Shown piece by piece: positions 6,308-58,711 of a DNA stretch of 64,000 bases; position 1 is the stretch's first letter, and each line of letters opens with the position of its first letter. The notes under the pieces are model-generated. The model worked only from the letters and a program-made list of their open reading frames with translations, was not told the origin of the DNA and made no database searches. A program made the position numbers and the translations under genes. Source of the DNA: Candidatus Methanomethylophilaceae archaeon (GTDB taxonomy: Archaea > Thermoplasmatota > Thermoplasmata > Methanomassiliicoccales > Methanomethylophilaceae); assembly GCA_944320495.1 (NCBI GenBank), contig CALUHR010000013.1, forward strand, positions 354,687 through 418,686. The letters run 5' to 3'.

Positions 6308-7663
6308 GTGACATATCTCACGGTCCCGTTCTTCACCTACATATTCGCGGTGCTGCCGGTCTGGCTGCCCCTGCTGGCAACGGACCTGGTGGCGCTGTAC
6401 ATCCTCATATTCAGGGAGAGGCACGACCCGAGGACGCTGATATTCTGGGTGGCGGTGGTGTTCATACTGCCGTTCCTAGGCTTCCTCTTCTACCTGCTGT
6501 TCGGCTGCACGCTGTTCGTCAGACGGTGGGGCTCGCGGAAGGAGGCATCCGACAGGAGGTTCCTGTCGGGCGTCTCGGAGGAGCCCCCGGAGGACGGCCG
6601 CAGGCTGTCCAACGTGCTCTCCAGCGCCGGGGCCGACGTGTACACGTCCGGGAACGGCGTCAGGCTGTTCTGGGACGCTCCGGACTCCTGGGGGACCTGC
6701 ATGGACGCCATCCTCGCTGCCAGCCGCAGCGTGCACATCGAGACCAACAGGCTCCCGGACGACCCGTCCCTGAGGGACATGCTGGCCTCCAAGGCGCGGG
6801 AGGGAGTCGACGTCCGCATCGTCACCGGGACCCGCGGGTTCGGGAGGACCCCCGGTCTCCGCGAGCTCAGGCGCGCGGGGGTCAGGTACACAACCTTCCA
6901 CGGATGGTTCCTCTCTACGTTCTCGCTCAGGGTCGAGAGCCGCTGCCTCAGGGATCTCCTCGTGGTCGACGGCTCTGTGGCGTTCACCTGCCTCGGGTCG
7001 TCGATAGAGGTCGAGGGCAGGGCCGCATCCCGCCTGGACCGCAGGTTCCTCGCCGACTGGGCGTTCGCATCCGGGGAGGCCGTCGACGTCCACGAAGACG
7101 TCCAGTCCTCCGACGGCGGGTGCGGGGTGCAGGTGGTCCCGTCCGGTCCCGATTCGTCAGGGATGGCCATGCTCCACGGGTACTCCGAGATAATATCGGA
7201 GGCGAGGGACAGGCTGTACCTCACGTTCCCGTTCCTGATCCCCAACGACGAGATGTACAACGCCATCAAGCAGGCGGTCATCGCGGGCACCGACGTCAGG
7301 ATACTCATCCCGTCGGTCTGCAGGCACTGGTACCAGCCCTGGAACTCCCTTGCCGCCTCCAACCCGCTCATGCAGGCCGGCGCGAGGGTGTACTTCTCTG
7401 ACACGGCGTCGGTGAGATGCCTCGCCGTGGCGGACGGCAGGGTGCTGGCCATGGGGACCGGCGTCTTCAACTCCAGGTCCCTGTGGGCAGACTACGCGGT
7501 GAACGTGGTCGTCAGGTCGGAGGATGTGGCCAGGGACGCCGAGAGGGCGTTCATGGCCGAGCTCGACGGTGCGGCGGAGTGCCTCCCGGAGGAGTACAGC
7601 CGCAGGTCCTTCGCGGATCGCATCAAGATTGCGGTCGCCAGGATGCTGATGTTCCTGAACCGA
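6308..7663 (+). CDS. Cardiolipin-synthase-like PLD-fold membrane protein with both HKD motifs lost; ends at CGA
   Basis: A 451-residue protein with two N-terminal membrane helices (PWLPLLATDLVALYILIF-type hairpin) followed by two phospholipase-D repeats, the architecture of cardiolipin synthase. The position of the first HKD motif reads LRDLLVVDG and of the second VRCLAVADG: the Asp survives, but His and Lys are replaced in both. It should not have PLD chemistry. The only in-frame CGA lies at 7661-7663, after RIKIAVARMLMFLN, where cardiolipin synthases normally end. The standard code reads on to 7888, through the S6e promoter and into S6e. It may be a lipid-binding or regulatory pseudoenzyme. 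Confidence 0.7.
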
Positions 7664-10965: not shown

Positions 10966-11044
10966 GCACGCTCCATCCGCCCCGTGTCCTTAAACCCTTC
11001 CGCCGACCGTCCCGTTATATCGTCGCATGCCGTGCATGTTCCCG

Positions 11045-12397
11045 ATGGATCCGTTCAGGCTGCAGGACCACGGCACGACGCCGGAGAGGGAGGCTGTCGC
11101 AGGTTTCACCACGTTCCTCTCGATGGCGTACATCCTGGTCACCGTGCCGGGGATACTCTCATCGCCGGACGGGATGCAGTGGGGCGCCGTGTTCCTGGCG
11201 TCGGCGATATCGTCGGCCGTCGGCACCCTCGTCATGGCGCTGTACGCCAACGTGCCGTACGCGCTGGCCCCAGGCCTCGGGATGGCCTCGTTCCTCACGG
11301 TGACCGTGTGCGGTGACATGGGATTCACCTGGCAGGAGGGTCTGTCGATCGTCTTCATATGTGGACTCGTGAACATCGCCATAACCCTGAGCAACGTCCG
11401 CCGCCTGATTATCGCGGCCATACCCCGCAGCCTCCAGCTGGCGATATCCGGGGGCATAGGGCTGTTCCTGGCCTACGTCGGACTGCTGGAGTCCGGCCTC
11501 CTGGACCTGTCGGGGAGCACCCCCGCCCTGGGCGATCTGGCCAGCCCCCAGGTACTGCTGTTCCTCGTCGCCCTCGTCGTGTCGATGCTCCTGTACATCC
11601 GCAACGTCCGTGGGGCGCCGATCATCGCCATCGCGGTCATCGCCCTCCTGGGCATCCCGATGGGCGTGACGCACATGGGTGACAACGTGGGCTTCGGAGA
11701 GGCAGTGTCCCAGCTATGCTCCTCCTTCGGGGCGATCTTCACATCCGAGGGCATACCGGCGCTCTTCTCCGACACCAGCAGGATACTGCTGGCGCTGGTC
11801 GCCATCGTATCATTCAGTCTGGTGGACACGTTCGACACCATCGGGTCGTTCGTGGGGACCGGGAGGAAGGCCGGCATATTCACGGAGGAGGAGATGACGA
11901 CCGCCGGCGATGGCGGGTTCAGGACGCGGATGGACCGCGCCCTGGTGGCCGATTCCGTCGCGACCTCCGTGGGGGCGGTGTTCGGCACCTCGAACACCAC
12001 GACGGTGCTCGAATCGGTGGTGGGGATCTCGCAGGGCGGCAGGACGGGTCTGGCATCCGTGGTGACGGCCGCGTGTATCCTGCTCATAATGCCGGCGGCG
12101 GCACTCATCAGCGTCATACCAGTGCCGGCCTATTCCGCGATCCTGGTGATGGTGGGCGTGATGATGCTCTCGTCGTTCAGGAGCATCGACTGGGAGGACC
12201 TGGGGGAGGCGGTCCCGGCGTTCTTCGCGGGGCTGTTCATCGCCCTCTGCTACAACATCAGCTACGGGATCGGATTCGCGTTCATCGCCTTCTGTCTGAC
12301 CAGGGTGTTCCTCGGCCGTGCCGGGGAGGTCAGCAGGCTGATGTGGGTCGTCTCAGCCCTTTTCGCGGTGATGTTCGCGCTGCAGGCGATCGTGCGA
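11045..12397 (+). CDS. AzgA-type purine (xanthine/uracil family) permease, ends at CGA
   Basis: About 450 residues, 12-14 membrane helices, NCS2/AzgA family. Marks include EREAVAGFTTFLSMAYILV at the N-terminus, PGLGMASFLTVTV, SLVDTFDTIGSFVG and GTSNTTTVLESVVG. It likely imports hypoxanthine, adenine or guanine with protons, and fits with Apt in the same window. A TATATC element at 11015-11020 makes a leaderless start at ATG 11045 most likely; ATGs at 11027 and 11036 are in frame. The only in-frame CGA is 12395-12397, right after the last helix. The standard code runs to 13537, antisense through all of RFC. The end abuts the RFC end. Confidence 0.75.
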
Positions 12398-13459
12398 TCG
12401 CGAGAAGCCTCGCCTGCGCTTCCTTCCGGACATCGCCACATAGGCGAGCAGATGTTCCAGCTGCACCCTCTCGAGGGGCATGCCCATGCCCCCGGACCCG
12501 CACTGGGCTATGCGGAAGTCCGTCTCCCCGACCTTGTCCAGGAGCCTCACGGCCTCCGCCCCCTCCAGCCCGAGCTCCAAGGCCTGCCTCTGGATCTCCG
12601 TGGCGATCTCGCGGCAGGTCATGCCCTCGCCGATGAGCAGCCCGTCCAGCGCGTCCCTGGCGGCCATGAAGTCGCCCGAGCGTGCCTTGGAGAGCATGTC
12701 CCTGACCCCGTTGGAGGAGCGGGTCTCGGACACGGCGAAGACCGCGTCGAGGTCCACGCGGCCTCTGGTCACGGCGGCCGCCTGGAGCATGGCCATCGCC
12801 CTCCTGATGTCCCCGTCGGCGGCCATGGCGATACCGTCCGCCGCCCCGCGGTCCAGTTCGACGCCCTCGGACTCTGCGACCTCGACGATGCGCTTCGAGA
12901 GGTCGGCGCGGGGTATGGGGACGAACCTGACGACCCCGCACCTGGACCTCACGGGGTCGATTATCATGGACTGGTGGTTGCAGGCGAGGATGAACATGCA
13001 GTTGCGGGAGTAGACCTCCATGGTGCGCCTGAGGGCCTCCTGCACCTCCTTGGACATCGTGTCGACCTCGTCGATGAAGACGACCCTGAACCTGACTCCG
13101 TCTATCGATGCCGTGGACACGAACTCCTTGATTCTCCAGAGGGGGCTGTCCATCGTCTTGGTGACGGTCCTGACGGTCGTCTCTCCCTCGTCATCGGTCT
13201 CCGTGACGGTGACCTCGCGTTTCTTGGTGAGGTCGGAGGCGTCGATCTCCAGGAAGTTGCCCTCGATGTTGCCCTCCAGGACCTCCCTCGCGACGATGAG
13301 CGCGCAGGTGGTCTTGCCGGTCCCCGGGGGGCCCGCCAGGAGGAGGTGCGGCACGCTCTGCTGGGACGTCAGCGGTCTGAGCCTCTCGACGGCCATCGGC
13401 TGGCCCACGATCCCGTCCAGGGATGTCGGCCTGTACTTCTCCATCCAGACGGACTCCAT
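12398..13459 (-). CDS. rfcS: Replication factor C small subunit, ends at CGA
   Basis: A 353-residue clamp-loader ATPase. It shows EKYRPTSLDGIVGQ, Walker A GPPGTGKT (residues 43-50), Walker B VVFIDEVD and the SRC arginine-finger motif. It loads PCNA (gene at 36441) on primed DNA together with a large subunit not seen here. Between Walker A and B there is an insertion of about 25 residues rich in Thr, Glu and Lys. The only in-frame CGA (12400-12398) follows the tail KRRRGFS; the standard code adds 15 residues to 12353. This CGA is the reverse strand of the same CGATCG that ends the permease. Confidence 0.88.
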
Positions 13460-13533
13460 CTTGATCGGGGGTCCATGCCCCTCGACCTATTAGGGTCCAT
13501 CGTCCGTCGCAATCTGCTTATATCGCAAACTGG

Positions 13534-13549
13534 TTAAGCGGTCACTTAA
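13534..13549. promoter_or_regulatory. Inverted repeat at the ArsR-NifX start, probable autoregulatory operator
   Basis: TTAAG at 13534-13538 and CTTAA at 13545-13549 form an inverted repeat six bases apart, directly around the expected transcription start of the ArsR-family gene and downstream of its TATA-like CTTATATC at 13517-13524. ArsR repressors commonly bind such dyads in their own promoters; here this is inference from position. Confidence 0.45.
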
Positions 13550-14354: not shown

Positions 14355-16553
14355 TCGCCCGTAGAACGGGACCGAGTCCCAGCCGGTGCGGCGCCTCCTT
14401 ATGCGCCGGCCGGCGTCCTCGTACCCGTCCATGACCTCCTTGGTCACGGACGGCATCACGAGCCCCAGCGCCGCATCGAAATGACGCTGGCACACCTTCG
14501 CGGCCCCGGGGTCCTCGCGGTAGGCGGCCAGTCCCGCCTCGCGGCACACCGAGGCGAGGTCCGCGCCGGTGTAGCCGTCGGTGGACCTCGCGACCGCATC
14601 CAGGTCCACGCCGTCCAGAGGCATCCTCTTTGTGTGCACCGCCAGTATGCTCCTGCGGGCCCTCTCGTCGGGCTTCCCCACGAGGACGAGCCTGTCGAAC
14701 CTGCCGGGCCTCAGCAGGGCCGGGTCTATCATGTCCGGGCGGTTGGTGGCGCCCATGACGGTCACGTTGCGCATGCCCTCGACCCCGTCCATCGAGGTGA
14801 GGAGCTGGGCGACGACCCTCTCCCATGCGGAGCCGTCCCCCGCTCCGCGGATGGGGGCGATCGAGTCCAGCTCGTCGAAGAATATGATGCAGGGGGCCAT
14901 CTGCTTGGCCCTCTTGAAGATCTGACGGATGGCGCGCTCGCTCTCGCCCATCCACTTGCTGGCCATCTCGGGACCGTTGACCGAGATGAAGTTGGTCCCG
15001 GACTCGTTGGCCATCGCCTTCGCTATCAGGGTCTTGCCGGTCCCGGGCGGTCCGTAGAGCAGGACCCCCTTCCCCGGCTCGATGCCGAGCCTCTCGCAGG
15101 GGTTGCCCTCCTCGGTGGACAGCACCTCGCGGATCTGCGCCCTCACATCGTCCAGGCCCCCGACGTCCTCCCAGGTGACCTTGGGGATCTCGACCAGCAC
15201 CTCGCGCATGCCACTGGGCTCCACGTCGGACAGCGCAGCCCTGAAGTCGTCCATGGACACGCGCATGCTCTCGAGGATCTCCGACGGGACCTTCCGGTCC
15301 AGGTCGAACTCCGACATGCGGGCGCTGAGGCAGTGCATGGCGGCCTCCCTGCAGAGGGCGGCCAGGTCGGCGCCCACGAAACCCTGGGTCATGGAGGCGA
15401 GCGCGTCCGGGGTGACGTCCTCGGTCAGTGGCATCTCCCTCAGGTGGACGGAGAGGATGTCCGCCCTCGCCTTCCTCCCGGGAATCCCGACCTCGATCTC
15501 CCTGTCGAACCTTCCAGGGCGTCTCAGCGCCGGGTCGATGGAGTCCTCCCTGTTGGTGGCGCCGATGACTATGACGTTCCCCCTGTCCCCGAGGCCGTCC
15601 ATCAGGGTGAGGAGCTGGGCCACCACCCTGCGCTCCACCTCGCCAGAGACCGCGTCCCTGCTGGGGGCGATGGAGTCTATCTCGTCCAGGAACACGATGC
15701 TGGGTGCGCTCTCCTCCGCCTTCTTGAATATCTCCCTCAGGCGCTCCTCGCTCTGGCCGTAGTACTGGCCCATGATCTCCGGTCCGCGGACCGAGAACAG
15801 GGTGGCGCCCGACTCGTTGGCGACCGCCTCGGCCATGAGGGTCTTCCCTGTGCCGGGCGGTCCGTAGAGGAGTACGCCCCTCGGGGCCCCTATGCCCAGG
15901 CGCTCGAAGAGCTCCGGATGCTTCAGGGGGAGCTCTATCATCTCACGGATGCGCTTCAGCTCGTCATCCAGGCCGCCCACGTCGTCATAGGTGATCTGAT
16001 GGCCGGTCTGGCTCTTCGCCGTCTCACGCTTGCGGGGACCGTCCCTGACGACAACCTTGGTGGATTCCGTGACGATGACCGGTCCCTTCGGGACGGTGGA
16101 TGCGACCGAGAACGTGGAGCGGTTGCCCATGAGGGCGATGTTCGGCACGATGATGTCCGTGTCCGCCACGAGGGGGCGGTTGAGGAGCCCCCGGAGGAAG
16201 ATCTCCTCGATCCCGTCCTCGAACCTGATGCGCTTGCCCTCGGGGATGTTCGGGGAGAGGACGACCTGCTCGGCGGGGGCGGGGTCGCATCTCCTCACGG
16301 TGACGCTCTCGTCCACGCTGACCCCCGCGTTGGTCCTGGTGAGGCCGTCTATCAGCAGCAGGCCGCGGCCCTCGTCCGTCTGGTCGCCCTTGAAGACCTT
16401 GGCGACGACGGTGCGCTTCCCGACGATCTCGATGGTGTCCCCCAGCTCCAGACCGAGGGCCCTGCGGGACTCGGAGTCCATCCTAGCCCTCCCATATCCC
16501 GCCTCGGACTGGGACCTGGCCATCGCGACTTTCAGGACGATCGAATCGGACAT
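14355..16553 (-). CDS. cdc48: Cdc48/VAT AAA+ unfoldase, ends at CGA
   Basis: A 732-residue AAA+ ATPase of the Cdc48/p97/VAT family, a hexameric unfoldase feeding the proteasome. An N-domain of about 190 residues (double-psi barrel) precedes two AAA modules, each with GPPGTGKT, Walker B ([10 protein letters not shown] and [10 protein letters not shown]) and arginine fingers. Full length for the family ends at about residue 730, exactly where the only in-frame CGA stands (14357-14355, after WDSVPFYG). I read all codons and found no other CGA. The standard code would add 270 residues antisense to the ArsR-NifX gene, to 13542. Confidence 0.9.
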
Positions 16554-16583: not shown

Positions 16584-17390
16584 TCATCGCGGTCCCGATC
16601 GCTCCCGCAGGCTTTCCATGGCGTCCGCCGCGTGGGCCCTGAACAGGTCCCTGAACTCGGGGTACTCGCCCATGCCGCGAACGATGCAGCGGGGGTTGTA
16701 CCCGGCCGCGGCCATGACGCTCCTGAGGGAGTCCTCCTCGTCCCCGGCGAGGTCGTTGTTGGCGTGGTCCCCGGCGACGATCATGAGCGGGAACATCGCG
16801 ACATCCTTGCGATCACAGCCCTCCATGAGGCCGAGGGTGCTGTCGTAGTCGGGGAAACCCTCCACCGTCGTGACGTAGACGTCCCTGCGGCCGGAGGCGA
16901 TCAGCCTGAGCTGGAGCTCGCTGTACGCCGAGTTCGCGAAGTGGGTGGTGCCGTGGCCCATGAGCACCATGGCGTCGCCTTCCGCCTCGGGGCCGTATGC
17001 GGCCCCGATCGCCTCGATGAGGGCGTCGAAGTCCTCGGAGGTCGTCAGGAGAGGCCTCCCGACGGTGATGGCGTCGAACCTGTCTCTGCGCCTCTCCACC
17101 TCCTCCATCATGTAGTCGTACTCGACGCCGTTCATCACGAGCGTGGGCTGGACCACCACGGTCCCGTAGCCCTCGTCGGCCAGCCTGTCCAGGGCGGCAT
17201 CGACGAAGTCGACGTGGATGCCCCTCTTCTCGAGGATCCTTATCACCGGACGGCTGGTGAACGCCCTCCTGACATCCCATCCGGGGAAGGATTCTGCGAT
17301 GTGCCTCTCGATGGCGCCGATGGTCTTCTCGCGGGTATCATCGTAGCTCGTCCCGTAGCTGGCGACGAGGATGGCCTTCTTTTCCGACAT
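16584..17390 (-). CDS. cbiK: Anaerobic sirohydrochlorin cobaltochelatase
   Basis: A 268-residue CbiK-type class II chelatase inserting cobalt into sirohydrochlorin at the start of the anaerobic cobamide route. The N-terminus AILVASYGTSYDDTREKTI and the motif VLMGHGTTHFAN with the metal-binding His are diagnostic; a second His lies in the C-terminal half (VAGDHANND). No signal peptide. ATG 17390 is chosen over upstream in-frame starts because homologues begin at MSEKKAIL. It is 30 bases upstream of cdc48 on the same strand. TGA stop. Confidence 0.9.
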   Translation of the reverse strand: MSEKKAILVASYGTSYDDTREKTIGAIERHIAESFPGWDVRRAFTSRPVIRILEKRGIHVDFVDAALDRLADEGYGTVVVQPTLVMNGVEYDYMMEEVERRRDRFDAITVGRPLLTTSEDFDALIEAIGAAYGPEAEGDAMVLMGHGTTHFANSAYSELQLRLIASGRRDVYVTTVEGFPDYDSTLGLMEGCDRKDVAMFPLMIVAGDHANNDLAGDEEDSLRSVMAAAGYNPRCIVRGMGEYPEFRDLFRAHAADAMESLRERSGPR

Positions 17391-17505
17391 GTGAGTTGGA
17401 TATATGCTCCACCTTAAAAATCCACCCGAAGGCCCTCCGGCGCCCGGTTCCCGACTGAACACTTAATATCAGCAAGGGGATGCGAGGGCAGTCAGAGGAA
17501 GTCCA

Positions 17506-21532: not shown

Positions 21533-21925
21533 TTGGCAGTCATCACGATCAGCGAGCTGACCTCCGCCATCAGGAACAGCATCGACAGCAGCTCCAGGGA
21601 GATGGAGGAGGAGGAGGCGTACGACCTCGCCCACAGGGTCCTGAACTTCTTCGGGTACTCGGACAGGATCATCGACAACATCCTGGAGCCGGAGGACCGC
21701 GACGCCTTCTACATGCTGGAGGACGCCGGCATCCTGACCACCGAGAGGGAGGAGACCACCCTCTACGACGGCAGGGAGTGGAGGATCCACTACTGGCTCT
21801 TCCGCAGGGAGAGGATCGACCAGCTGATCAACCAGGGCCCCCGCAGGACGGAGGCCCGGGTGGAGGCCGAGTTCGACTACGACGAGCTGCCGGACGACAT
21901 CTGGCAGCGCGGCTCCCAGGAATGA
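21533..21925 (+). CDS. DUF6015-like small acidic protein, conserved archaeal
   Basis: A 130-residue acidic, mostly helical protein with no membrane segment. The pattern of an N-terminal helical part (EEEAYDLAHRVLNFFGYSDR) followed by WRIHYWLF near the middle resembles uncharacterised archaeal proteins annotated as DUF6015; that match is from memory. No catalytic motif is evident. TTG 21533 has GGAG at good spacing, while ATG 21527 overlaps the serA stop. Its 3' end overlaps the XPD helicase start by four bases, suggesting a link to that helicase. Confidence 0.6.
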   Translation: MAVITISELTSAIRNSIDSSSREMEEEEAYDLAHRVLNFFGYSDRIIDNILEPEDRDAFYMLEDAGILTTEREETTLYDGREWRIHYWLFRRERIDQLINQGPRRTEARVEAEFDYDELPDDIWQRGSQE

Positions 21926-23796
21926 GGATGGCCGTCTTCCCGTACCCCTACCGTCCCGGCCAGAGGGAGCTGGTCTCCTTCATAGACCGCTCCGCCCGGG
22001 ACGGCATGTGTCCCGTCGTCGAGGCGGGGACGGGCACCGGGAAGACCGTCTCCTCCCTGGCCGGCATGCTCCCGCTGGCCGGGGAGCGGGACCTCAAGAT
22101 AATCTATCTGACGCGCACGAAGTCCCAGCAGGCGCAGGTCCTGCGGGAGTGCTCCGCCATCGGCGGGGTCGTGTGCATCGGCCTCCAGGGCCGCTCCGCC
22201 TCCTCCTGTCCGATGATGAGGGACGACCCGGACCTCAGGTCAGGCACCCCGGAGGAGATCTCGAAGCTGTGCTCCGAGCTGAAGCGCAGGACCGAATCCG
22301 GATGCGCCTGCCCGTACTTCGCCAACCTCGAGGGTGCGGACGAGGAGCACTGGCTCTCCGTCCTGTCGCAGGAGGGCATGACGCCGGAATCGTCCTCCGA
22401 GGTGTGCGAGGAGGCGGGACTGTGCCCGTACGAGCTCCTCAAGCACCTCCTGCCGAGGGCGGACGTCATCGCCGCCTCGTACCCGTTCATGTTCGTGCCG
22501 CCCATACTCGCGAGGTTCGAGGAGTGGGTGGGCGTGCCGGTGGAGAGGATGCTCGTCATCGCCGACGAGGCCCACAACCTCCCCGACTACCTGCGCGAGG
22601 TGCAGACCTACGAGTACAGCAGATGGTCCATGGACATGGCCGAGAAGGAGTCCAGGGAGTTCGGGGACCGGGAGATCCACCAGGGGATCACCGTCTCGGA
22701 CGTGGCCGCCGTGCTGAGGGAGATACTGGAGGCCACGGCCAAGGAGTACCTGATCGACGAGGACGGCATCATCCCCCCGCACTTCGTGGAGGACGAGCTG
22801 ATGGCCCGCCTCGGGGTGACGTCGGTCGGCCTCGGGAGGATCTCGAGGGGCCTGACGGACCTGGGGGACGTCATCGAGGAGCAGAGGAAGCAAAGGCGCA
22901 AGCTGCCCCGCTCCTACATCGGGATGATGGGGAGGTTCCTCGACGCGTGGATGTCGGAGGAGGACCCCAGCTGCGTCCGCCTGGTTATCGGAGGCACGAA
23001 CCCCTGCTTCCAGTCCTACTGCATGGATCCAGCCCCGGCGGCGGAGCCGCTGAACGCGTGCCACTCGGCGCTGCTGATGTCGGGGACGCTGGAGCCTCTG
23101 GAGGACTATGTACGGGAGATGGGCATCGAGAGGCCGGCGATCCGCCGCCAGCCCAGCGCGTTCGACCCTGGCCATCTCCTCACGCTGTACACCGACAGGG
23201 TGTCGATGAAGTACGAGGAGAGGTTCCTCGAATCCAACTATGCGGCGCTGAGGTCGCTCCTCCTCGACACCGTGAACTCCGTCCGCGTGAACACGGCGGT
23301 GTTCTTCCCGTCCTACGACCTGATGGACAGGATGGTGTCCGAGGGCATCGTCGACGCCCTGGGCAGGGACGTGTACTTCGAGCGGAGGGGCATGCCGCAG
23401 GGGGAGCTGATGGAGACCTTCGACCAGTTCAGGACCTCCGAGGGGAGCGTCCTCTTCTGCGTGACCGGCGGCAGGATGAGCGAGGGCCTCGACTTCCCGG
23501 ACAAGGCCCTGGAGCTCGCGGTGCTGATCGGGATACCGTATCCGAAGCCCACGGCCAAGTCCAGGGCCATGGTGCGCTACTACGACCGCCGCTTCGGGGA
23601 CGGGACGAAGTACGTGACGAGGATCCCGGCGGAGCGCAAGATGCGCCAGTCCATCGGCCGTCTGATAAGGTCGGAGACGGACCGCGGGGTGGCGGTCATA
23701 CTGGACCGGAGGGTCGTCTCCATGGATCTCGGGGCGATGCTCTGCTCCGACATACCCTCGGCGGTGGCCGCGTTCCTCTCCGAAGGCCGGTCGCGA
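21922..23796 (+). CDS. xpd: XPD/Rad3-type Fe-S DNA helicase, ends at tandem CGA
   Basis: A 624-residue superfamily 2 helicase unwinding DNA 5' to 3' in repair. It shows Walker A VEAGTGTGKT, four cysteines of the Fe-S domain (SSCPMM, SGCACPYF, AGLCPYEL region), the DEAH box VIADEAHN, and C-terminal motifs V and VI (RMSEGLDF; QSIGRLIRSETDRG). The frame ends CGA CGA TAG (23794-23802): the first CGA follows LSEGRS and no other CGA is in frame. It is the only gene, with Taw2, whose standard end would be TAG. The start ATG overlaps the upstream stop (ATGA). Confidence 0.88.
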
Positions 23797-23834
23797 CGAT
23801 AGTTTTAGAAACAGGTGTCCGCAATCAGCCGTCC

Positions 23835-24117: not shown

Positions 24118-24459
24118 TCATGGGTCCGGCGGGGTCTCACCGTTCTTCGACAGGACCCCGTCGAACGCGTGTCTCAGGTTGTCCATGTCGTCCAGCGGGA
24201 TCGGCGGGACGTCCTTCGACCTCTTGAAGAAGCAGGGTCCGAACAGCGGGCAGTGTTCCACCCCGTTGACATCCGTGAACACGTTCCCCTCCGCGATCTT
24301 GATTGCTCTCCTCTCAGTGCGTGTCCTGGTGAAGAGCGTGGTCAGTGATTTGGCCTTCTCGTTACGACCGGATTTCACCTCTATCGTCGTGACCTCGCTG
24401 TCCATGTAGGTCAGGATCCTTCTCTCCATGGAATCGATCTGGGTAAGATCATATTGCAA
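24118..24459 (-). pseudogene. C-terminal relic of an AAA ATPase with DUF4143 domain
   Basis: About 113 residues matching only the last part of the large ATPases with a DUF4143 nuclease-like domain: IEVKSGRNEKAKSLTTLF is the conserved PD-(D/E)xK-like core and CPLFGPCFFKRSKD the usual end. The AAA module (about 300 residues) is missing and the possible start is TTG 24459 or ATG 24429. These genes are abundant and mobile in gut archaea and bacteria, so this is probably decayed. Two copies of an 18-base direct repeat abut its 5' end. Confidence 0.65.
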
Positions 24460-24503
24460 CTTTCATGAGGGAATATGCCATTGAAATTGCAACTTTCATG
24501 AGG
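24453..24503. repeat. 18-bp perfect direct repeat, 33-bp period
   Basis: ATTGCAACTTTCATGAGG occurs at 24453-24470 and again at 24486-24503. The period of 33 is exactly eleven codons; read on the minus strand each copy encodes MKVAI, giving a 16-codon open frame MKVAISMAYSLMKVAI that ends in TGA. It borders the 5' end of the DUF4143 relic, in the only AT-rich spot of the area. It may be a duplication footprint or a tandem operator. Confidence 0.7.
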
Positions 24504-24557: not shown

Positions 24558-25187
24558 TCAGGCGCCGTCCAATCTGGCCGCATCGACCGAGGCCCTGGCG
24601 AGCGCATCGATGTCGACGGCAGCGCTCATCTCCGCCACCTTGGCGGGGTCCGCCTCCGTGACGGGGTGGATGGGAACGATGGAGCATCCGTGACCCGGTC
24701 TGATGGATATGTCATAGGTCCCGATGTCCTTGGCTATGGCCTCGATCTCGAGCTTGTCCATGCCGATGAGCGGTCTGACGACGGGGAAGTCGAGACCCTG
24801 GTTCTCCGCGCGTATGTTGCGGAGCGTCTGCGAAGCGACCTGTCCGAGCGAGTCGCCCATGACGATCCCGGAGCATCCGAGCCTTCTCCCCAGCTCCCTC
24901 GCCGTCCTCTGCATGACGCGCTTGCACATGACGCACTGATAGGGATGGGGGCAACCATCGTGTATCGCGTCCTGTGACGGCGCGTGGGGGGCGATCCAGA
25001 GCGGGAGCTCCTGTCCGGTGGATTCCCTGAGCGCGTCTGCGATGTCCCTGACGTCGTCCAGCTGGACCGGTCCGGAATAGGGGGTGTTGTCCATGTGGAG
25101 GAGGACGACCTCGGCTCCCACGGAGCACATTCTGTGGACGGCGACCGGCGAGTCGATCCCGCCGGACATCAATGCGATGAGCCTCAT
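24558..25187 (-). CDS. ThiI-like PP-loop sulfurtransferase lacking THUMP and rhodanese domains
   Basis: A 209-residue AANH/PP-loop protein. MSGGIDSPVAVHRM is the ATP pyrophosphatase loop; the CVMCKRVM motif and GDSLGQVASQTLRNI match the catalytic domain of ThiI, which adds sulfur to uridine 8 of tRNA. The N-terminal THUMP domain and C-terminal rhodanese are absent, as in some archaeal forms that rely on partner proteins. The ATG at 25187 overlaps the csl4 stop by four bases, so it is cotranscribed with csl4 and the methyltransferase: an RNA-modification and decay operon. Confidence 0.8.
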   Translation of the reverse strand: MRLIALMSGGIDSPVAVHRMCSVGAEVVLLHMDNTPYSGPVQLDDVRDIADALRESTGQELPLWIAPHAPSQDAIHDGCPHPYQCVMCKRVMQRTARELGRRLGCSGIVMGDSLGQVASQTLRNIRAENQGLDFPVVRPLIGMDKLEIEAIAKDIGTYDISIRPGHGCSIVPIHPVTEADPAKVAEMSAAVDIDALARASVDAARLDGA

Positions 25188-25750
25188 CGGAGGACCACGT
25201 CGCCGTAGTCGTCCGCCAGCTTCCTGGGAATGGCGTACCTGCACTCGGGGCAGTACAGGCCCTCGCCCTTCTTGTCGCGGACCATCTCGGTCTTGCACTT
25301 GGAGCAGAGCGCCCTGATGCATCCGAGGTGCTTGTCCTTGGTGGCGAGCTGGAGGGAGGGCTTGGTCTCGGTGACGACCGCCCTGATGTAGTCGCCCTTG
25401 CGGAGCTCCTTGGACACGTCGTCGGTGTACTTGGGGGAGATCTTGGACACGTGGAGGGTCGCGTAGGTCTCCCCTCCCACGTTCTTGCTGGTGCCCTCCT
25501 TGGCCACGACGTCCGCGGTGGCCATGGTGCTCCTGATGTCGGCCACGACCGCGTAGACGACGTCCCCCTTCTTCAGGATGTTAGGGGGGTTGGGGCAGAC
25601 GACGGATGCGGTGCACTCGTCGTCGTCCAGAACGAGGGTGCCGACCTGGGACGCGTAGACGGTACCGTTGTCCGCGAAGGTCCCCTCTCCCGCGGCGTAC
25701 TCCTCTTCCACGGCGACCTCGTCGCCGGGCATGACGAACCTGGAATCCAT
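25184..25750 (-). CDS. csl4: Exosome RNA-binding subunit Csl4
   Basis: A 188-residue Csl4: N-terminal domain (FVMPGDEVAVEEEYAAGEGT), an S1 domain in the middle (GDVVYAVVADIRSTMATADV), and a C-terminal zinc ribbon (CSKC, then YCPEC). It caps the archaeal exosome together with Rrp4 and recruits substrates and DnaG. ATG 25750 follows an AGGTGATT ribosome-binding site; the GTG at 25759 is less likely. It is flanked by METTL5-like and ThiI-like genes in the usual archaeal arrangement. Confidence 0.94.
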   Translation of the reverse strand: MDSRFVMPGDEVAVEEEYAAGEGTFADNGTVYASQVGTLVLDDDECTASVVCPNPPNILKKGDVVYAVVADIRSTMATADVVAKEGTSKNVGGETYATLHVSKISPKYTDDVSKELRKGDYIRAVVTETKPSLQLATKDKHLGCIRALCSKCKTEMVRDKKGEGLYCPECRYAIPRKLADDYGDVVLR

Positions 25751-25755
25751 GTGAA

Positions 25756-26349
25756 TCACCTTATGCCGACCGCCGCGACCTCGACGGTCTGTCTCTCCTT
25801 TGAATGGAATGAAAACTGATGCGGGATATCGTACTTATAGGTTCTACGCCAGAACACGGACCTCCCGCGGCGCCCGCAGAAGTCCTCCACGAATCCCAGG
25901 GTGGACGCCATGTGGATGGAGTAGACGCAGTCCGACAGTGCCAGCGCCCTCTCGAGGAACGGGCGGTCCGCGTGCGGGGTCTGGCACCCGAACGGGGGGT
26001 TCATCACCACGGTGTCCGCTCCCTCGGAGACGTCCCCGATCAGCGACTCGCGGAAGTCGACGTCCGCGCCGAGCGCGGAGGCGTTGGACCTCGCTATGGC
26101 GAGCGCCTCGGGGTCCACGTCGAAACCGACCACCATGCCGGCGCCGAGCAGCGCCGATCCGATGGAGAGCATCCCGGTCCCGCATCCCAGGTCCATGACC
26201 TTCAGCCCCCGGATGTCCCCGCGGGAGTACGCCTCGAAGAGCATGTCCGCCGCTATCGTGGCGGGCGTCATGTACTGCTCGAGCGCGGAGCTCGGGTCCT
26301 CGAAGTTGCGGACCGACTGCAGGCGGATTTCCAGCTCCCTCTTCCTCAT
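25756..26349 (-). CDS. METTL5-like N6-adenine methyltransferase
   Basis: A 197-residue class I SAM-dependent methyltransferase. SAM motif I is VMDLGCGTGMLSIG and the catalytic motif IV is NPPFGCQ, as in the METTL5 family that methylates an adenosine of small-subunit rRNA; the N-terminal EQYMTPATIAADML is typical. It starts the csl4 operon and is divergent from purH. ATG 26349 is preferred over the more distal in-frame starts because the protein family begins here. Confidence 0.88.
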   Translation of the reverse strand: MRKRELEIRLQSVRNFEDPSSALEQYMTPATIAADMLFEAYSRGDIRGLKVMDLGCGTGMLSIGSALLGAGMVVGFDVDPEALAIARSNASALGADVDFRESLIGDVSEGADTVVMNPPFGCQTPHADRPFLERALALSDCVYSIHMASTLGFVEDFCGRRGRSVFWRRTYKYDIPHQFSFHSKERQTVEVAAVGIR

Positions 26350-31823: not shown

Positions 31824-32633
31824 TCACCCGCATCGGTTTAGGTCCATGCCGAACACGACGGACGGTGCCGCGTATGTGATCGATCCCAGGGAGACGATGT
31901 CCGCCCTGCCGATGTACGCCGGGATGTCGTCCGGGGAGATCCCTCCGGAAGCTTCGACGAGGATGCGGTCGCTGACCGCCTTGACGGCGTCGCGGATCTG
32001 TCCGGTCAGCTCGGGACCGCAGTTGTCGGCCATGACGATGTCCGCTCCCATCTGGGCGGCGGTGACGGCGTCGTCGACGTTCTCCACCTCGACCTCCACC
32101 TTCACGGCGAAGGACCTCTTGGAGAGTCTCTCCATGCAGGCGCGGACGCCCCCGCACGCCTTGATGTGGTTGTCCTTGACCATGATCATGGAGTCGAGGC
32201 CCATCCTATGGGGGTCGCCACCAGCGATCCTCACTGCCTCCTTCTCGAAGTCGCCGAACCCGGGGGTGGTCTTCCTGGTGGCCGCGACGACGATTCTCCC
32301 GTCGGCCTTCGCGACGGCCGCGGAGGTCGCGGTGGCGACCCCCGACATCCTCATCAGGATGTTCAGGGCCGTGCGCTCGATGGTTATCATGGACCTCATG
32401 GGTCCGGAGAGGGAGAGGACCCTCGTGCCGGCCGCGACCCTGTCCCCGTCCCTCACGAGGGGCGTCACGGACACCCCGGCGGACTCGAACAGGTCCTCCA
32501 CGATCGAGATCCCGGCGACGGTGCAATCGCCCTCGCAGACGATGCGGGCGGTGCCGTCCGTGTCCGGGACCGTCAGCTCGGTGGTGATGTCGCCGCGGCC
32601 CACATCGGCCCTGAGGAACCTCTCCGCGTCCAT
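31824..32633 (-). CDS. nadC: Quinolinate phosphoribosyltransferase
   Basis: A 269-residue NadC forming nicotinate mononucleotide from quinolinate and PRPP in de novo NAD synthesis. Signatures: DVGRGDITTEL near the N-terminus, ALNILMRMSGVATAT, ATRKTTPGF and VEVEVENVDDA, ending with EASGGISPDDIPAY. Length fits. It lies 3 bases after the beta-CASP RNase gene on the same strand. ATG 32633 is used; GTG 32639 overlaps the upstream stop. NadA and NadB are not in the window. Confidence 0.95.
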   Translation of the reverse strand: MDAERFLRADVGRGDITTELTVPDTDGTARIVCEGDCTVAGISIVEDLFESAGVSVTPLVRDGDRVAAGTRVLSLSGPMRSMITIERTALNILMRMSGVATATSAAVAKADGRIVVAATRKTTPGFGDFEKEAVRIAGGDPHRMGLDSMIMVKDNHIKACGGVRACMERLSKRSFAVKVEVEVENVDDAVTAAQMGADIVMADNCGPELTGQIRDAVKAVSDRILVEASGGISPDDIPAYIGRADIVSLGSITYAAPSVVFGMDLNRCG

Positions 32634-32635
32634 GG

Positions 32636-33871
32636 TCACACGTCCAGCTCGAACTCCTCGCCAGTCTTCGGCAGGAGCACGTTGTAGTCGGTGAGGTCGG
32701 GAAGGAACTTCTCGCGCGCTTCGGAGTGCATGAAGATGACGTTGTCCGGGTCGCAGGCCTTGATGAACTCGATGATCTGGTCGTGGTCCGCGTGGGCCGA
32801 GAAGTCGTACTTCTGCAGCTCACACTCGACCTTGCAGATCTCGCCGTCGATGTTGACGCAGCGCTGCTCCATGAGCATCCTTCCGTTGGTGTCCTCGGCC
32901 TGGTATCCGACGAGGAGGATGGCGCTCTTCGGGTCGTTCTTGATCTTGTTGAGGTAGCGGATGACGGGGCCCCCGTCCAGCATGCCGCCGGTGGTGACGA
33001 TGATCTGGCCCTTCATGGCGATGTCCCTGCTGCCGGGCCTTCTGACCTCGTTGAACCTCTTCTTGGCCTGCTTGAGCTGCCTCTCGTCCCTGAGGTACTC
33101 GGGGTAGTCGAGGAACAGGCGGGTGACGGAGCGTCCCATGCCGTCTACCCACATCTCGTAGTCCAGGTCCTTCAGGAGCATCATGATCTCCTGGGTCCTG
33201 CCCACGGCGAAGCAGGGGATGAGGACGGTTCCGCCGCGGTCGATGACCTCCTCCACCTTGGCGAGGAACTCCCTCTCCGTCTGCTTCCTCGGAGGGTGGT
33301 TGCGGTCCGCGTAGGTCCCCTCGATGAACAGGTTGTGGCAGTCCTTCGGCTTGGCGCCCTTGACCAGCCTCTGGGCCTCGGTGTGGATGTCGCCCGAGTA
33401 GATCGTGGTGGTGTCGCGGGCGAACTCGAACATGGCCGCCCCGGGGACGTGTCCCGCATCGAGCATCGCCACGTCGACGTGGCCGACGGTGATCTCGTCG
33501 CCGTAGGTCATGGGCACGACGCACTGCATGGTCCTCTCGATGTCGTCGGCGGTGTAGGGCTGGACGTAGTTCTCCGCCTTGGCGATCTTGAGGGTGTCCT
33601 TCATCATCAGCTCCGCGACCTCGGCGGTCAGGGGGGTGGTGAAAACCTCGCACCTGTCCCTTCCGACGACCTGGGGGACCATCCCGCAGTGGTCCAGGTG
33701 GCAGTGGGTGAGGAACATGTGGTCGATCTTTGGCGCCTCCAGAGGGAACTCCGGGGGCTTGGTGGGGCTGAGGCCGTACTCCACGAGGAGCCTCATCCCG
33801 TCCCCTTCCATCGTCATTCCCATGCGGCCGACCATGTCAGCGCCGCCCAGAAACTTGAATTTCATTTTCAT
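32636..33871 (-). CDS. Beta-CASP metallo-beta-lactamase RNase (aRNase J / CPSF-like)
   Basis: A 411-residue metallo-beta-lactamase nuclease. The zinc site HCHLDHCG (motif 2), LDAGHVPGAA (motif 3) and YSGDIHTE (motif 4) are present, then a beta-CASP domain with PCFAVGRTQEI and the C-terminal SAHADHDQI. There is no KH domain as in aCPSF1, so it belongs to the shorter aCPSF2 or exonuclease group involved in RNA decay or 3' processing. ATG 33871 has overlapping alternative ATG 33865; the longer in-frame ORF to 33952 lacks a good start. Confidence 0.9.
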   Translation of the reverse strand: MKMKFKFLGGADMVGRMGMTMEGDGMRLLVEYGLSPTKPPEFPLEAPKIDHMFLTHCHLDHCGMVPQVVGRDRCEVFTTPLTAEVAELMMKDTLKIAKAENYVQPYTADDIERTMQCVVPMTYGDEITVGHVDVAMLDAGHVPGAAMFEFARDTTTIYSGDIHTEAQRLVKGAKPKDCHNLFIEGTYADRNHPPRKQTEREFLAKVEEVIDRGGTVLIPCFAVGRTQEIMMLLKDLDYEMWVDGMGRSVTRLFLDYPEYLRDERQLKQAKKRFNEVRRPGSRDIAMKGQIIVTTGGMLDGGPVIRYLNKIKNDPKSAILLVGYQAEDTNGRMLMEQRCVNIDGEICKVECELQKYDFSAHADHDQIIEFIKACDPDNVIFMHSEAREKFLPDLTDYNVLLPKTGEEFELDV

Positions 33872-39590: not shown

Positions 39591-40726
39591 TCGACGTCGC
39601 GGTGGCGGGAGGCGGACCCGCGGGAAGCGCGGTCGCCGCCCTCCTGGCCCGCGACCACGGCGTGATGGTGTTCGAGGACCATCCGCGCATAGGGCTCCCG
39701 GAGCAGTGCGCAGGGCTCCTCACCGATCGCGCCATAGAGGCGTCCGGGGTCTCCCCGGACGTCCTCTCCACCTTGTACGGGGCCGAGGTCCTCCTCCCGG
39801 GTGGGGGCAGGGTCGAGGTCCGCTCCGAGCGTCCGAAGGCGAGGGCCGTGGACCGTTCGGACCTTGATTCGAAGATGGCCGACAGGGCCATGGCCGCCGG
39901 TGCCGAGTACAGGCTCTCGGAGAAGGTCAGGTCGTTCTCCGTCGGGTCGTCCGTGGGGATCTCCACGTCCGCCGGGGACCACAGTGCCAGACTGCTCATA
40001 GGGGCCGACGGTCACGGGTCCGTGGTCGCTCCCGCCGTGGGCTGCGTCCCCGGCGAGCGCATACGCGGGGTGCAGGCCGATGTCGCCGTGAGGATGGAGG
40101 ACCAAGGGATGTTCCGCATGCGCATGGGCTCGAGGTACGCCCCCGGATTCTTCACGTGGGAGATCCCCTGCGGGGACTTCACCCGCGTCGGGCTGTGCAC
40201 GTCATGGTCCGCCGGTCCGCCGTATCAGTATCTGAAGAGGCTGCTCTCGGACCTGGGGTACGGGGACCGCGTCATACGGATGCACAGCGGCAGGATACCG
40301 ATGCACCCGTCCGGGCCGATATCCTCGGACAGGGTGATGCTCATCGGCGACGCCGCCTCGCAGGTCAAGCCGGTCTCCGGAGGGGGGATACTGCCTTCGA
40401 TGGTTGCCGCCCCCATACTCGCGGATGTGGCGCATTCCGCCCTCGCATCCGACGACCTCTCGGCGAGGAGGCTCTCCGAGTACGACAGGCGCTGGGATGA
40501 CGCCATGGGGAGGGATCTGTCGAAGGCGTACCGCCTCCGGAGGGCGCTCCTGAGGATGGACGACCGCGACCTGGACCGTGCCGGTCGCTACGCCTCGAGG
40601 GACGATGTCCGCGCGGTGCTGGACGGCATAGACCTGGACACGCCCGCCGATGTGATGAAGGCGCTCCTGAGGCATCCGGGCATGGCGGCTTCGGGCGCCT
40701 GGACGCTCCTGAGGTGCTTGATATGA
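39587..40726 (+). CDS. Geranylgeranyl reductase family FAD-dependent oxidoreductase
   Basis: A 379-residue flavoprotein of the GGR family, which in archaea saturates the isoprenoid chains of membrane lipids. [18 protein letters not shown] is the dinucleotide-binding loop, [10 protein letters not shown] the Cys-containing motif near the active site, and [18 protein letters not shown] the second FAD motif. I read the codons and found no in-frame CGA. It overlaps the transaldolase stop and the next start by four bases each, so it is fully coupled within the operon. Confidence 0.88.
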
Positions 40727-41754
40727 GGCGCGTGCCGATGGCCGAGGTGCCCTCGCGGATCGCGGGGGAGACGATAAACAGGCTGATGTCCCTCGGATAC
40801 GTGGACATCCACGCCAGGATAGCGAAGGGCGACGGCTGCCGTCTGGTGCCGATACTGCCGGAGCACGTGGACGACGTCTCCGCGATGGGGTTCGCCATCA
40901 CGGAGGGAGACGCCCATTCGCTGGACCGCAGGACGCCCCAGGAGAGGATCTCGGAGATCCTCGGGGGCATACCTGAACTGAGGGGTCATCTGCCCGACCG
41001 CTGGGAGTTCGTCGGTGACATCGTCATCCTGAAGCTGGACCCGTCCTGCGAACCGTATCTCGACGGCATCGGTGACGCCTATGCGAAGGTGCTCGGCGCC
41101 AAGACCGTGTGCGCGGACGTCCACGGCGTGTCCGGGGAGTTCCGTCAGCCCAGCATGAGGGTGATCCACGGCACCGAGACCGAGTCGGTGCGTCTCGAGA
41201 ACGGCATCCGTTACCGCTTCGACGTCACCAAGGTCATGTTCGCCTCCGGCAACACGGACGAGCGCATGCGCATGAGGAGCCTGGACTGCACCGGCGAGAC
41301 CGTCGTGGACATGTTCGCTGGCATAGGGTACTTCACCCTCCCGCTGGCCAGGTTCTCTGGGGCCCGCAGGGTCTTCGCCTGCGAGAAGAATCCCGAATCC
41401 TACCATTATCTGGTGGAGAACGTCCGTCTCAACGAGGTGGGCGATGTGGTGCTGCCCATGCTCGGTGACAACCGCTCCATCCCGGGCAGGGACTTCGCGG
41501 ACCGCATCCTGATGGGGTACGTGCAGACGACATCGGAGTTCCTGCCGGCGGCCCTGAGGATGATACGCATCGGCGGGATCATCCACTACCATGACACCTT
41601 CCCGGTGGGCGACCAGGCCCGCAGGGTCGACGAGATCTTCTCGCCGCTCTGCGGATACGAGGTCCTGGGGATCCGCGAGGTGAAGTCCTTCGCCCCGTCG
41701 GTGTCCCATTACGTCGCCGACGTCAGGATAACTTCTCGTTCGCCCCGCAGGCGA
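40723..41754 (+). CDS. taw2: tRNA wybutosine-type transferase Taw2 (Trm5/Tyw2 family), ends at CGA
   Basis: A 343-residue Rossmann-fold enzyme. The SAM motif DMFAGIGYFTLPLA and the N-terminal domain place it with TYW2/Taw2, which transfers the aminocarboxypropyl group of SAM to guanosine 37 derivatives of tRNA-Phe; Trm5 usually has DMFAGVGPF. The FPVGDQARRV region is near the end. The standard-code stop would be TAG at 41770-41772; the first in-frame CGA, 41752-41754, precedes it by five codons. The 3' end overlaps the convergent gene at 41723 by about 30 bases. ATG 40723 overlaps the GGR stop. Confidence 0.82.
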
Positions 41755-43228
41755 CCAGGAGCGTCCTCATAGCGTCGAGGTACTTGTCCCCGCCCGCCTT
41801 GACGACGTTGCCGGCGAACTGTGCCAGATAGTCGGCCAGCTCCCTCTCCGCCGGGGAGAGCTTCATGGAGGGCTCCCCTCCGCAGGCGAGGATGAACGCG
41901 GCAGCGACTGAACGGGACTTGCTGTCCTTGAGGGACGTCTTCTCGACGGTCTCGGCGACCATGTTGGCGCCTCCGACCTTGGCGGCCTTGGCCAGTCTGT
42001 CTATGACCTGGGTCATCGGTCCGGGGCGCCTGATCTCCGGCAGGGATGCCACCACGTCGGCCGAGAGGAACACGCTGTACGCGTTGTCCAGCGCCTGCAT
42101 GGGCTGGGAGCGGGACACGTCTCCGACCGCATCGGCGGTCCTGGCGTCGGTGTGGGTCCTGATGATGTCCTTCCAGTCGGACTCCCACAGCACCGACAGG
42201 GCCTCGCTGACCCTGGGGGTCTTCAGGACCACGGCGCGGCTGTTCTCGGAGAGGAACCTCCTGAGGGTGTCCCTCTCCCTCTCGCCGCCTTCCAGCGCGG
42301 AGATGAACGCGTCCAGGTCCGAGCCGTAGTTGGCGGTGCCCACGATGTAGGTGGCCGCGGCTCCGTCCTTCAGGCTGCCGAGCTTGGACCTCTTGACCGA
42401 TGAGATGAGGGCCGCGTCGCCGACCTTGCCGATCATGTAGTCCTTGAGACGGTCGCCGGTGATGGGCTCGATGTCGCTCTCCCCGGATGAGTGGTACTTG
42501 TGCCTCACGCGGACCTCCATGTCGTCCATGGGGTCGACGGCCGCCAGCCTGGACACGATGTACATCAGGGTCGAGACGTCACGGGCGCAGTTCTCGCATA
42601 TCGAGATCGTCTCGTCCAGGGACTTCACGTGGATCTCCAGCACCGCGGAGGTGGTGTGTCCGCAGGAGAGCCCATCGTCCGGGAACTCGTAGGGTGTCTC
42701 CCAGAATGTGTCGTAGAGGTACCCCTCCGGCATGTTGGGCGAGTCGGAGCACACCAGGTCCTCCCCGAACGAGTACAGGTGGAGCTTGTTCTTCTTGATG
42801 ATGTCGGAGTACAGGAGCAGCCTCTTCTTCGGGTCGTCGTAGTACTGGCACCCGATCAGCTTCGCGGCGTTGACCGTCCCGCGCACCGCGTAGGACACGG
42901 TCTCCCCTCCGAGCTTCCCGGATGCGAGCATGGGCACCGAGCCGGACGCCGCCAGGGATATCGTCCCGGCGTAGGCGCGGACGATGTCGTCGCCACCCAG
43001 CCTGGACGCCTCCTTTATGAGGGCCTCGGGGTCGTTCCTGATCTTCTGGAGGCCGTCTATGTGCTTGAAGGGCTTGTCGAAGACGCACTTCCTGCAGTTC
43101 CCGGCGCACTGGGGCCTCAGGATCCCGGGGTCGTCGGCGAGCGTCCTGGAGCGTTCCAGCAGCTCGTCCTCAAGTCTCTTGGAGGTGTGCTTGACGCCCC
43201 TCATCCTAAGCCTCTTCTTCCCGGGCAT
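41723..43228 (-). CDS. Large conserved archaeal protein with Cys clusters, unknown function
   Basis: A 501-residue soluble protein that I do not recognise. Residues 40-50 have CAGNCRKCVF, an Fe-S- or zinc-like cluster; a second set (SCGHTTSAV and ICENCARD) lies near residues 190-230. The middle is mixed alpha/beta; the C-terminal 170 residues are helical, with a conserved-looking CGGEPSMKLSPAERELADYL. The basic start (MPGKKRLRMRG) suggests RNA contact. It is convergent with taw2 and divergent from the RNase III gene. TGA stop. Confidence 0.6.
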   Translation of the reverse strand: MPGKKRLRMRGVKHTSKRLEDELLERSRTLADDPGILRPQCAGNCRKCVFDKPFKHIDGLQKIRNDPEALIKEASRLGGDDIVRAYAGTISLAASGSVPMLASGKLGGETVSYAVRGTVNAAKLIGCQYYDDPKKRLLLYSDIIKKNKLHLYSFGEDLVCSDSPNMPEGYLYDTFWETPYEFPDDGLSCGHTTSAVLEIHVKSLDETISICENCARDVSTLMYIVSRLAAVDPMDDMEVRVRHKYHSSGESDIEPITGDRLKDYMIGKVGDAALISSVKRSKLGSLKDGAAATYIVGTANYGSDLDAFISALEGGERERDTLRRFLSENSRAVVLKTPRVSEALSVLWESDWKDIIRTHTDARTADAVGDVSRSQPMQALDNAYSVFLSADVVASLPEIRRPGPMTQVIDRLAKAAKVGGANMVAETVEKTSLKDSKSRSVAAAFILACGGEPSMKLSPAERELADYLAQFAGNVVKAGGDKYLDAMRTLLVACGANEKLS

Positions 43229-58630: not shown

Positions 58631-58702
58631 GGCCCTGTGGGGTAGCGGATATCCCGTCAGATTTCGGCACTGACAATCCGGGTTCGATTCCCGGCAGGGC
58701 CG
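58631..58702 (+). tRNA. tRNA-Arg (TCG), unusual anticodon stem and no encoded CCA
   Basis: Acceptor GGCCCTG/CAGGGCC pairs perfectly; discriminator G; T arm CCGGG-TTCGATT-CCCGG is intact. The anticodon stem TCAGA/ACTGA has four pairs and an A-A clash at 31-39. Loop TTTCGGC gives anticodon TCG (58664-58666), the cognate of CGA and, by wobble, CGG. The 3' end reads GCCT, so CCA is not encoded, unlike the two other tRNA genes here. The AT-rich TTAATTATG at 58601-58609 may be its promoter. Confidence 0.75.
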
Positions 58703-58711
58703 CCTGTTTCT

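Follow-up and report, generated by a model that had tools for sequence, protein, structure and literature searches.

Bacterial prfB, the gene for release factor RF2, is autoregulated through an in-frame UGA that is escaped by a +1 frameshift. Changes in which a sense codon becomes a stop are, in the parts of the account of UCA and UCG in green-algal mitochondria on which we draw, a rare mitochondrial phenomenon, and nuclear code changes run virtually all from stop to sense (PMC6821328). For bacteria the Codetta survey described reassignments of CGA and CGG to Trp and of CGG to Gln or Trp (PMC8629427). Here we studied a stretch of 64,000 nucleotides from Candidatus Methanomethylophilaceae archaeon (assembly GCA_944320495.1, contig CALUHR010000013.1, positions 354,687 to 418,686), referred to as the window, and the gene ends in it that coincide with CGA. 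We conclude from sequence comparison that CGA is very probably a translation stop codon in this UBA71-type archaeon of the Methanomethylophilaceae (Methanomassiliicoccales), with a mechanism that would involve the archaeal release factor aRF1 and the cognate tRNA-Arg(UCG).

As in the green-algal mitochondria, a sense codon ends genes, vanishes from sense positions and is accompanied by changed release-factor residues. The present case differs in that it concerns a cellular archaeal genome, an Arg codon and an eRF1-type factor and that the cognate tRNA is kept; those parts of the mitochondrial account also report no feedback site in the release-factor gene (PMC6821328). The Codetta cases are similar as rare CGN codons acquired a new meaning, but they are changes from sense to sense in low-GC genomes (PMC8629427), whereas here the change would be from sense to stop at 63% GC. 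The pyrrolysine code of the Methanomassiliicoccales is shared by our archaeon in all the features we looked at (PylS, an in-frame TAG in MtmB and the avoidance of TAG as a stop), and a CGA stop would be an additional code change.

The assembly holding the window (G000) comprises 1.77 Mb in 14 contigs with a GC content of 63%, and we sampled ∼364 kb of it, about one fifth of the genome. Antisense and shifted-frame 'shadow' open reading frames (ORFs) contaminated ORF-based codon counts in these GC-rich genomes. We therefore used greedy best-scoring genes and tblastn instead, and the coding stretches in the 364 kb were set by tblastn with the proteins of two genomes from other genera, G048 (44% GC) and G089 (49% GC). 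The comparison genomes were gathered via aRF1, and the named ones are metagenome-assembled genomes (MAGs) from the Methanomethylophilaceae, often of gut or rumen origin. Although many of them are MAGs, the CGA pattern appears again in assemblies made independently and in genomes that consist of one contig. We infer the label UBA71-type for the source genus from the record UBA71, one of its closest relatives; the sister genus in our comparisons consists of Methanomethylophilus-like genomes.

For 96 genes of G000 the ends matched the ends of homologs: 74 ended in TGA, 18 in CGA (∼19%), 4 in TAA and none in TAG. A second method applied to 111 genes gave 86 TGA ends, 24 CGA ends (one of them a shadow ORF) and a single TAA end. 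In the related genome G008, CGA ended 5 of 39 genes. Inside genes the codon was nearly absent, and its place at gene ends exceeds chance. Across 33,498 codons of G000 we counted CGA 3 times, CGC 689 times, CGG 76 times and CGT 118 times; one of the three CGAs is codon 67 of the aRF1 gene and the other two seem to lie in weak or wrong-frame alignments. The only in-gene CGA among 11,486 codons of G008 was again aRF1 codon 67. Hence what is expected of a sense-to-stop change was observed on both counts, as the CGA ends were flush with homologs that carry standard stops and CGA was all but absent from conserved sense positions. At the base following a terminal CGA, pooled over the genus, T (16) and G (10) predominated over C (4) and A (4). 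A CGA found repeatedly close to the beginning of a 170-aa gene ('SRGDVS') was rejected as coding and is taken, judging by the sequence pattern, as an upstream Shine-Dalgarno sequence.

Two genes of the window have a CGA end close to a TAG:

21922-23796, plus strand: XPD/Rad3-type helicase gene, ending at CGA 23794-23796 (TIGR00604, E 8e-73)
23794-23802, plus strand: CGA CGA TAG, read from the sequence as stop, tandem backup stop and incidental TAG
40714-41754, plus strand: Taw2/TYW2 gene, ending at CGA 41752-41754, with TAG 41770-41772 outside the gene (PF02475/PF25133)

An earlier note on this DNA had pointed to these codons, and rereading the frames confirmed them: the XPD frame (from 21922) runs through GGTCG to CGA 23794-23796, CGA 23797-23799 and TAG 23800-23802, and in Taw2 CGA precedes TAG. 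In 25 readable XPD orthologs of the genus, 24 of them besides the gene of the window, the first stop or CGA fell between −4 and +11 codons from the CGA position of G000 and was TGA in 15 cases, CGA in 6, TAA in 4 and never TAG. In two of the genomes (G004 and G021) a CGA is retained close to this end, and a TAG follows 9-11 codons beyond it. The 30 Taw2 orthologs of the genus end in TGA (21) or CGA (9). In the nearest relative in this comparison, G008, Taw2 is 98% identical and retains the CGA, and a sense codon stands at the place of the TAG. One species group reads CGA TGA in Taw2, with the CGA one codon before the stop of its relatives, which looks like an intermediate state. Since the orthologs end at the CGA column and G008 lacks the TAG, the sequences indicate that CGA terminates both XPD and Taw2, as the note had proposed, and that the nearby TAG is incidental. 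The note had also taken the combination of CGA with a following TAG to fit a genome that avoids TAG as a stop. The tandem itself is not conserved among the orthologs, so that it is the CGA that matters and its closeness to TAG is incidental.

The idea of the note that no gene relies on TAG as a terminator held in the sample. None of the 96 homology-checked genes ended in TAG, and gene ends provided by TAG alone, which in large numbers would have spoken against the idea, did not turn up in the sample. The note had suggested looking for pylS, and PylS is present at G000:C9:67854-68522 (TIGR02367, above the cut-off). Two MtmB genes contain one in-frame TAG each. Taken together, PylS and the in-frame TAGs of MtmB indicate that TAG is read as pyrrolysine in this archaeon, as had been supposed.

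An ORF scan of the window returned 14 plausible CGA-ended genes. This is close to the 13 of the earlier count, although its exact census of 67 genes was not reproduced. Beside XPD and Taw2 we list the following:

6308-7663, plus strand: cardiolipin synthase-like gene, CGA end; the standard reading adds 75 codons; profile reached 479/483 (TIGR04265)
11027-12397, plus strand: xanthine/uracil permease gene, CGA end (PF00860, layout)
12410-13459, minus strand: replication factor C (RFC) small subunit gene, CGA end; profile covered to near its end (NF001679)
14355-16553, minus strand: CDC48 AAA ATPase gene, CGA end; the standard code adds 271 codons; flush with the outgroup homolog, tails 0/0 (TIGR01243)
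16599-17462, minus strand: sirohydrochlorin cobaltochelatase (CbiK) gene, CGA end; profile reached 258/261 (NF047852)
25187-25759, minus strand: gene for the Csl4 subunit of the exosome, with CGA TGA at its end; tails 0/0 against the homolog (NF034126)
31833-32639, minus strand: NadC gene, CGA end; tails 1/1 against the homolog (TIGR00078)
45324-46832, plus strand: thymidine/AMP phosphorylase-like gene, ending CGA TGA (PF00591, PF07831)

Under the standard code the permease gene (11027-13537) would run 380 codons further, across the antisense RFC gene.

A candidate for the cause lies in aRF1. Human eRF1 Arg68 aligns with the aRF1 residue four after NIKS. A free-energy study of eRF1 found a discrimination of ∼6 kcal/mol against CAA, CAG and CGA, which fell to 1-2 kcal/mol in Arg68Ala, as this variant no longer keeps the NIKS loop in place (Nat Commun 2017 8:1425, PMC5681627). 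The equivalent residue is Met in 62 of our genomes and Leu in 5, with 0.32 and 0 CGA per 1000 codons outside aRF1, respectively; in the remaining genomes it is Arg, Lys or Asn and the corresponding rates are 4.2, 5.9 and 1.8. The change from Arg to Met is common to most of the family and not specific to the genus, and a search for genus-specific residues in aRF1 gave no obvious decoding residue. If the Arg68Ala prediction of a relaxed first-position C applies, CAA should be avoided as well. Its use relative to GAA+AAA was 0.31 in the Met/Leu genomes compared to 0.98 in the others (p 4e-7), and CAA may be a partial stop in the former. The use of CAG was the same in both groups, which fits the absence of a UAG stop here.

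The second component is the tRNA that reads CGA:

58631-58704, plus strand: tRNA-Arg(UCG), the cognate tRNA for CGA; anticodon stem mismatched at A31.A39 (ARAGORN, genus comparison)

The 31-39 pair of this tRNA is A.A or C.A in some members of the genus, and others (L221, L253-L259) have C in place of the universal U33. Other genera show C31-G39 or U31-A39 together with U33, and the sister genus is canonical. That this tRNA has acquired two distinct kinds of lesion suggests that selection favoured its weakening, while its retention despite the lesions is what readthrough in aRF1 would require.

The third component is the CGA that remains within the aRF1 gene. Of 22 distinct sequences of the genus, 21 have CGA as codon 67, the sole CGA in the matched coding region; this codon lies inside domain 1, and the Arg that it encodes is invariant in an alignment of 13 sequences. 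Every CGA67 stands in the context [GT]CT CGA CTN AAR, the core of which (CTCGACTNAAR) was absent elsewhere among the 222 loci compared, and the frame stays open past it with conserved protein. In the aRF1 neighbourhoods of the UBA71-type genomes CGA accounted for 0 of 1,944 Arg codons outside aRF1 against 19 of 396 inside (p 1.5e-15), and in those of the Methanomethylophilus-like genomes for 0 of 1,458 against 13 of 248; both counts were verified against a separate CGA listing. The position varies between clades. All 13 Methanomethylophilus-like sequences have a single CGA at codon 14, the g16 genomes have it at codon 0, and others have it at codon 39, at 112, or at 88 and 94. The lone CGA looks like autoregulation of the release factor by readthrough. 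The likeness to prfB is an early in-gene codon at which the gene's own factor would terminate, giving negative feedback. The differences are that the aRF1 frame continues past the codon, that escape would occur through readthrough by tRNA-Arg(UCG) and that the stop is CGA; an escape by +1 frameshift as in prfB was not found in aRF1, which would work like prfB and is not a member of that system. As a separate observation, the aRF1 proteins of G000 (G000:C2:85942-87135, L048) and G008 (L046) have a GTx loop in which Ser replaces Gly (RSTELIS; RGTELIS in their relatives). The GTx loop is implicated in reading stop codon positions 2 and 3.

We consider the following scenario likely. In the core Methanomethylophilaceae the sole class-I release factor, aRF1, lost the Arg68 equivalent to Met or Leu, and in the light of the published simulation this would have relaxed the demand for U at the first codon position, so that aRF1 would release at CGA as it does at UGA. 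CGA, which by comparison of the genomes terminates genes and is lacking at sense positions, would thereby have become a stop and CAA would have come to be partly avoided, with ends drifting between TGA and CGA in some lineages. The anticodon-arm lesions observed in tRNA-Arg(UCG) of the genus would lower competition at CGA stops. With aRF1 scarce, the weak tRNA would read the CGA that persists at codon 67 as Arg and more aRF1 would be made; with aRF1 plentiful, termination at this codon would act as negative feedback. The site would turn over between clades, and the whole would be the first case of a sense codon turned stop in a cellular genome.

Several points weigh against a CGA stop and its use in feedback. 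The cognate tRNA is still encoded and its copy in the sister genus looks intact, so CGA could be ambiguous instead of a pure stop. The correlations with the Arg68 equivalent and with CAA rest on very few evolutionary changes, as the genomes are not independent. In the neighbourhood counts a motif filter assigned CGA matches to aRF1, so that beyond the two main genera the numbers of CGA in other genes may be too low. Nor does every genome of the genus have the feedback site: G092 (L208) has CGC at codon 67 and seems to have lost the site or never had it; this genome ends its own aRF1 with CGA. In three genomes, L110, L117 and L318 (∼13017; the third also given as G048), a poorly conserved gene for a helix-turn-helix/TPR-like regulator, upstream of and next to aRF1, contains an internal CGA; this is possibly a second CGA-controlled gene, or the copies are decaying. 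Finally, the Codetta survey lists no sense-codon change in archaea, but it assigns amino acids only and would miss a change from sense to stop (PMC8629427).

That CGA still means arginine, with XPD and Taw2 ending at TAG and the proteins of this lineage carrying C-terminal extensions, would keep the standard code and agree with the predicted, intact-looking gene for tRNA-Arg(UCG). We nevertheless regard it as extremely unlikely: CGA ends are flush with homologs in several genes, the standard readings overrun antisense genes as in the permease or lengthen genes by anything up to hundreds of codons, CGA is missing from conserved coding stretches, and the near-identical Taw2 of G008 has no TAG to end at. 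Editing of C to U in the RNA, by which CGA would become UGA in the mRNA under an unchanged code, needs only a single change, predicts the same gene ends and would be invisible in DNA data. As CGA is common out of frame, its in-frame avoidance throughout the genes would presuppose an editor that recognizes the reading frame, and the Arg68 change, the CAA depletion, the damaged tRNA-Arg(UCG) and the lone conserved CGA in aRF1 would be left unexplained, which makes editing highly improbable.

It is also improbable, though a shade less so, that CGA is an unassigned or starved codon at which ribosomes stall and are rescued, for example by Pelota, without release by aRF1. The weakened tRNA of the genus would fit such stalling, but in the Methanomethylophilus-like genomes the tRNA looks canonical and CGA is avoided equally. 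Moreover, CGA is the end of about one fifth of the genes here, including many core genes, and the codon is retained only in the release-factor gene, as feedback by aRF1 would predict. The remaining alternative accepts CGA as a stop and explains the conserved aRF1 CGA as a slow codon that aids folding and has no regulatory role. Position 67 lies inside domain 1 and G092 manages without CGA67, both compatible with such a pause. We think it unlikely, as CGA is found at codon 0, 14, 39, 67 or 112 depending on the clade and always in the same gene, which fits regulation better than a pause at one place, and as the U preceding codon 67 is kept together with CGA and lost together with it in G092.

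Searches of the open-access literature returned nothing on CGA as a stop, on codon use in Methanomethylophilus or on autoregulation of archaeal release factors, and a prior report elsewhere is possible. If true, a CGA stop together with release-factor self-regulation via a leftover CGA would be, within the literature searched, the first in a cellular genome. Many genomes display the change, and complete ones from cultured gut methanogens are probably among them. They offer a candidate residue, a tRNA that lingers, a feedback site and intermediates with CGA one codon ahead of the former TGA, so that the Arg68 prediction and models of how codes change can now be put to a direct test. For annotation, the standard code would place false C-terminal tails on about one fifth of the proteins in genomes like G000.

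Apart from the CGA ends, a 17-base motif, TTGCAACTTTCATGAGG, occurs twice at window positions 24454-24503, 33 bases apart, upstream of a minus-strand ORF (24118-24459).
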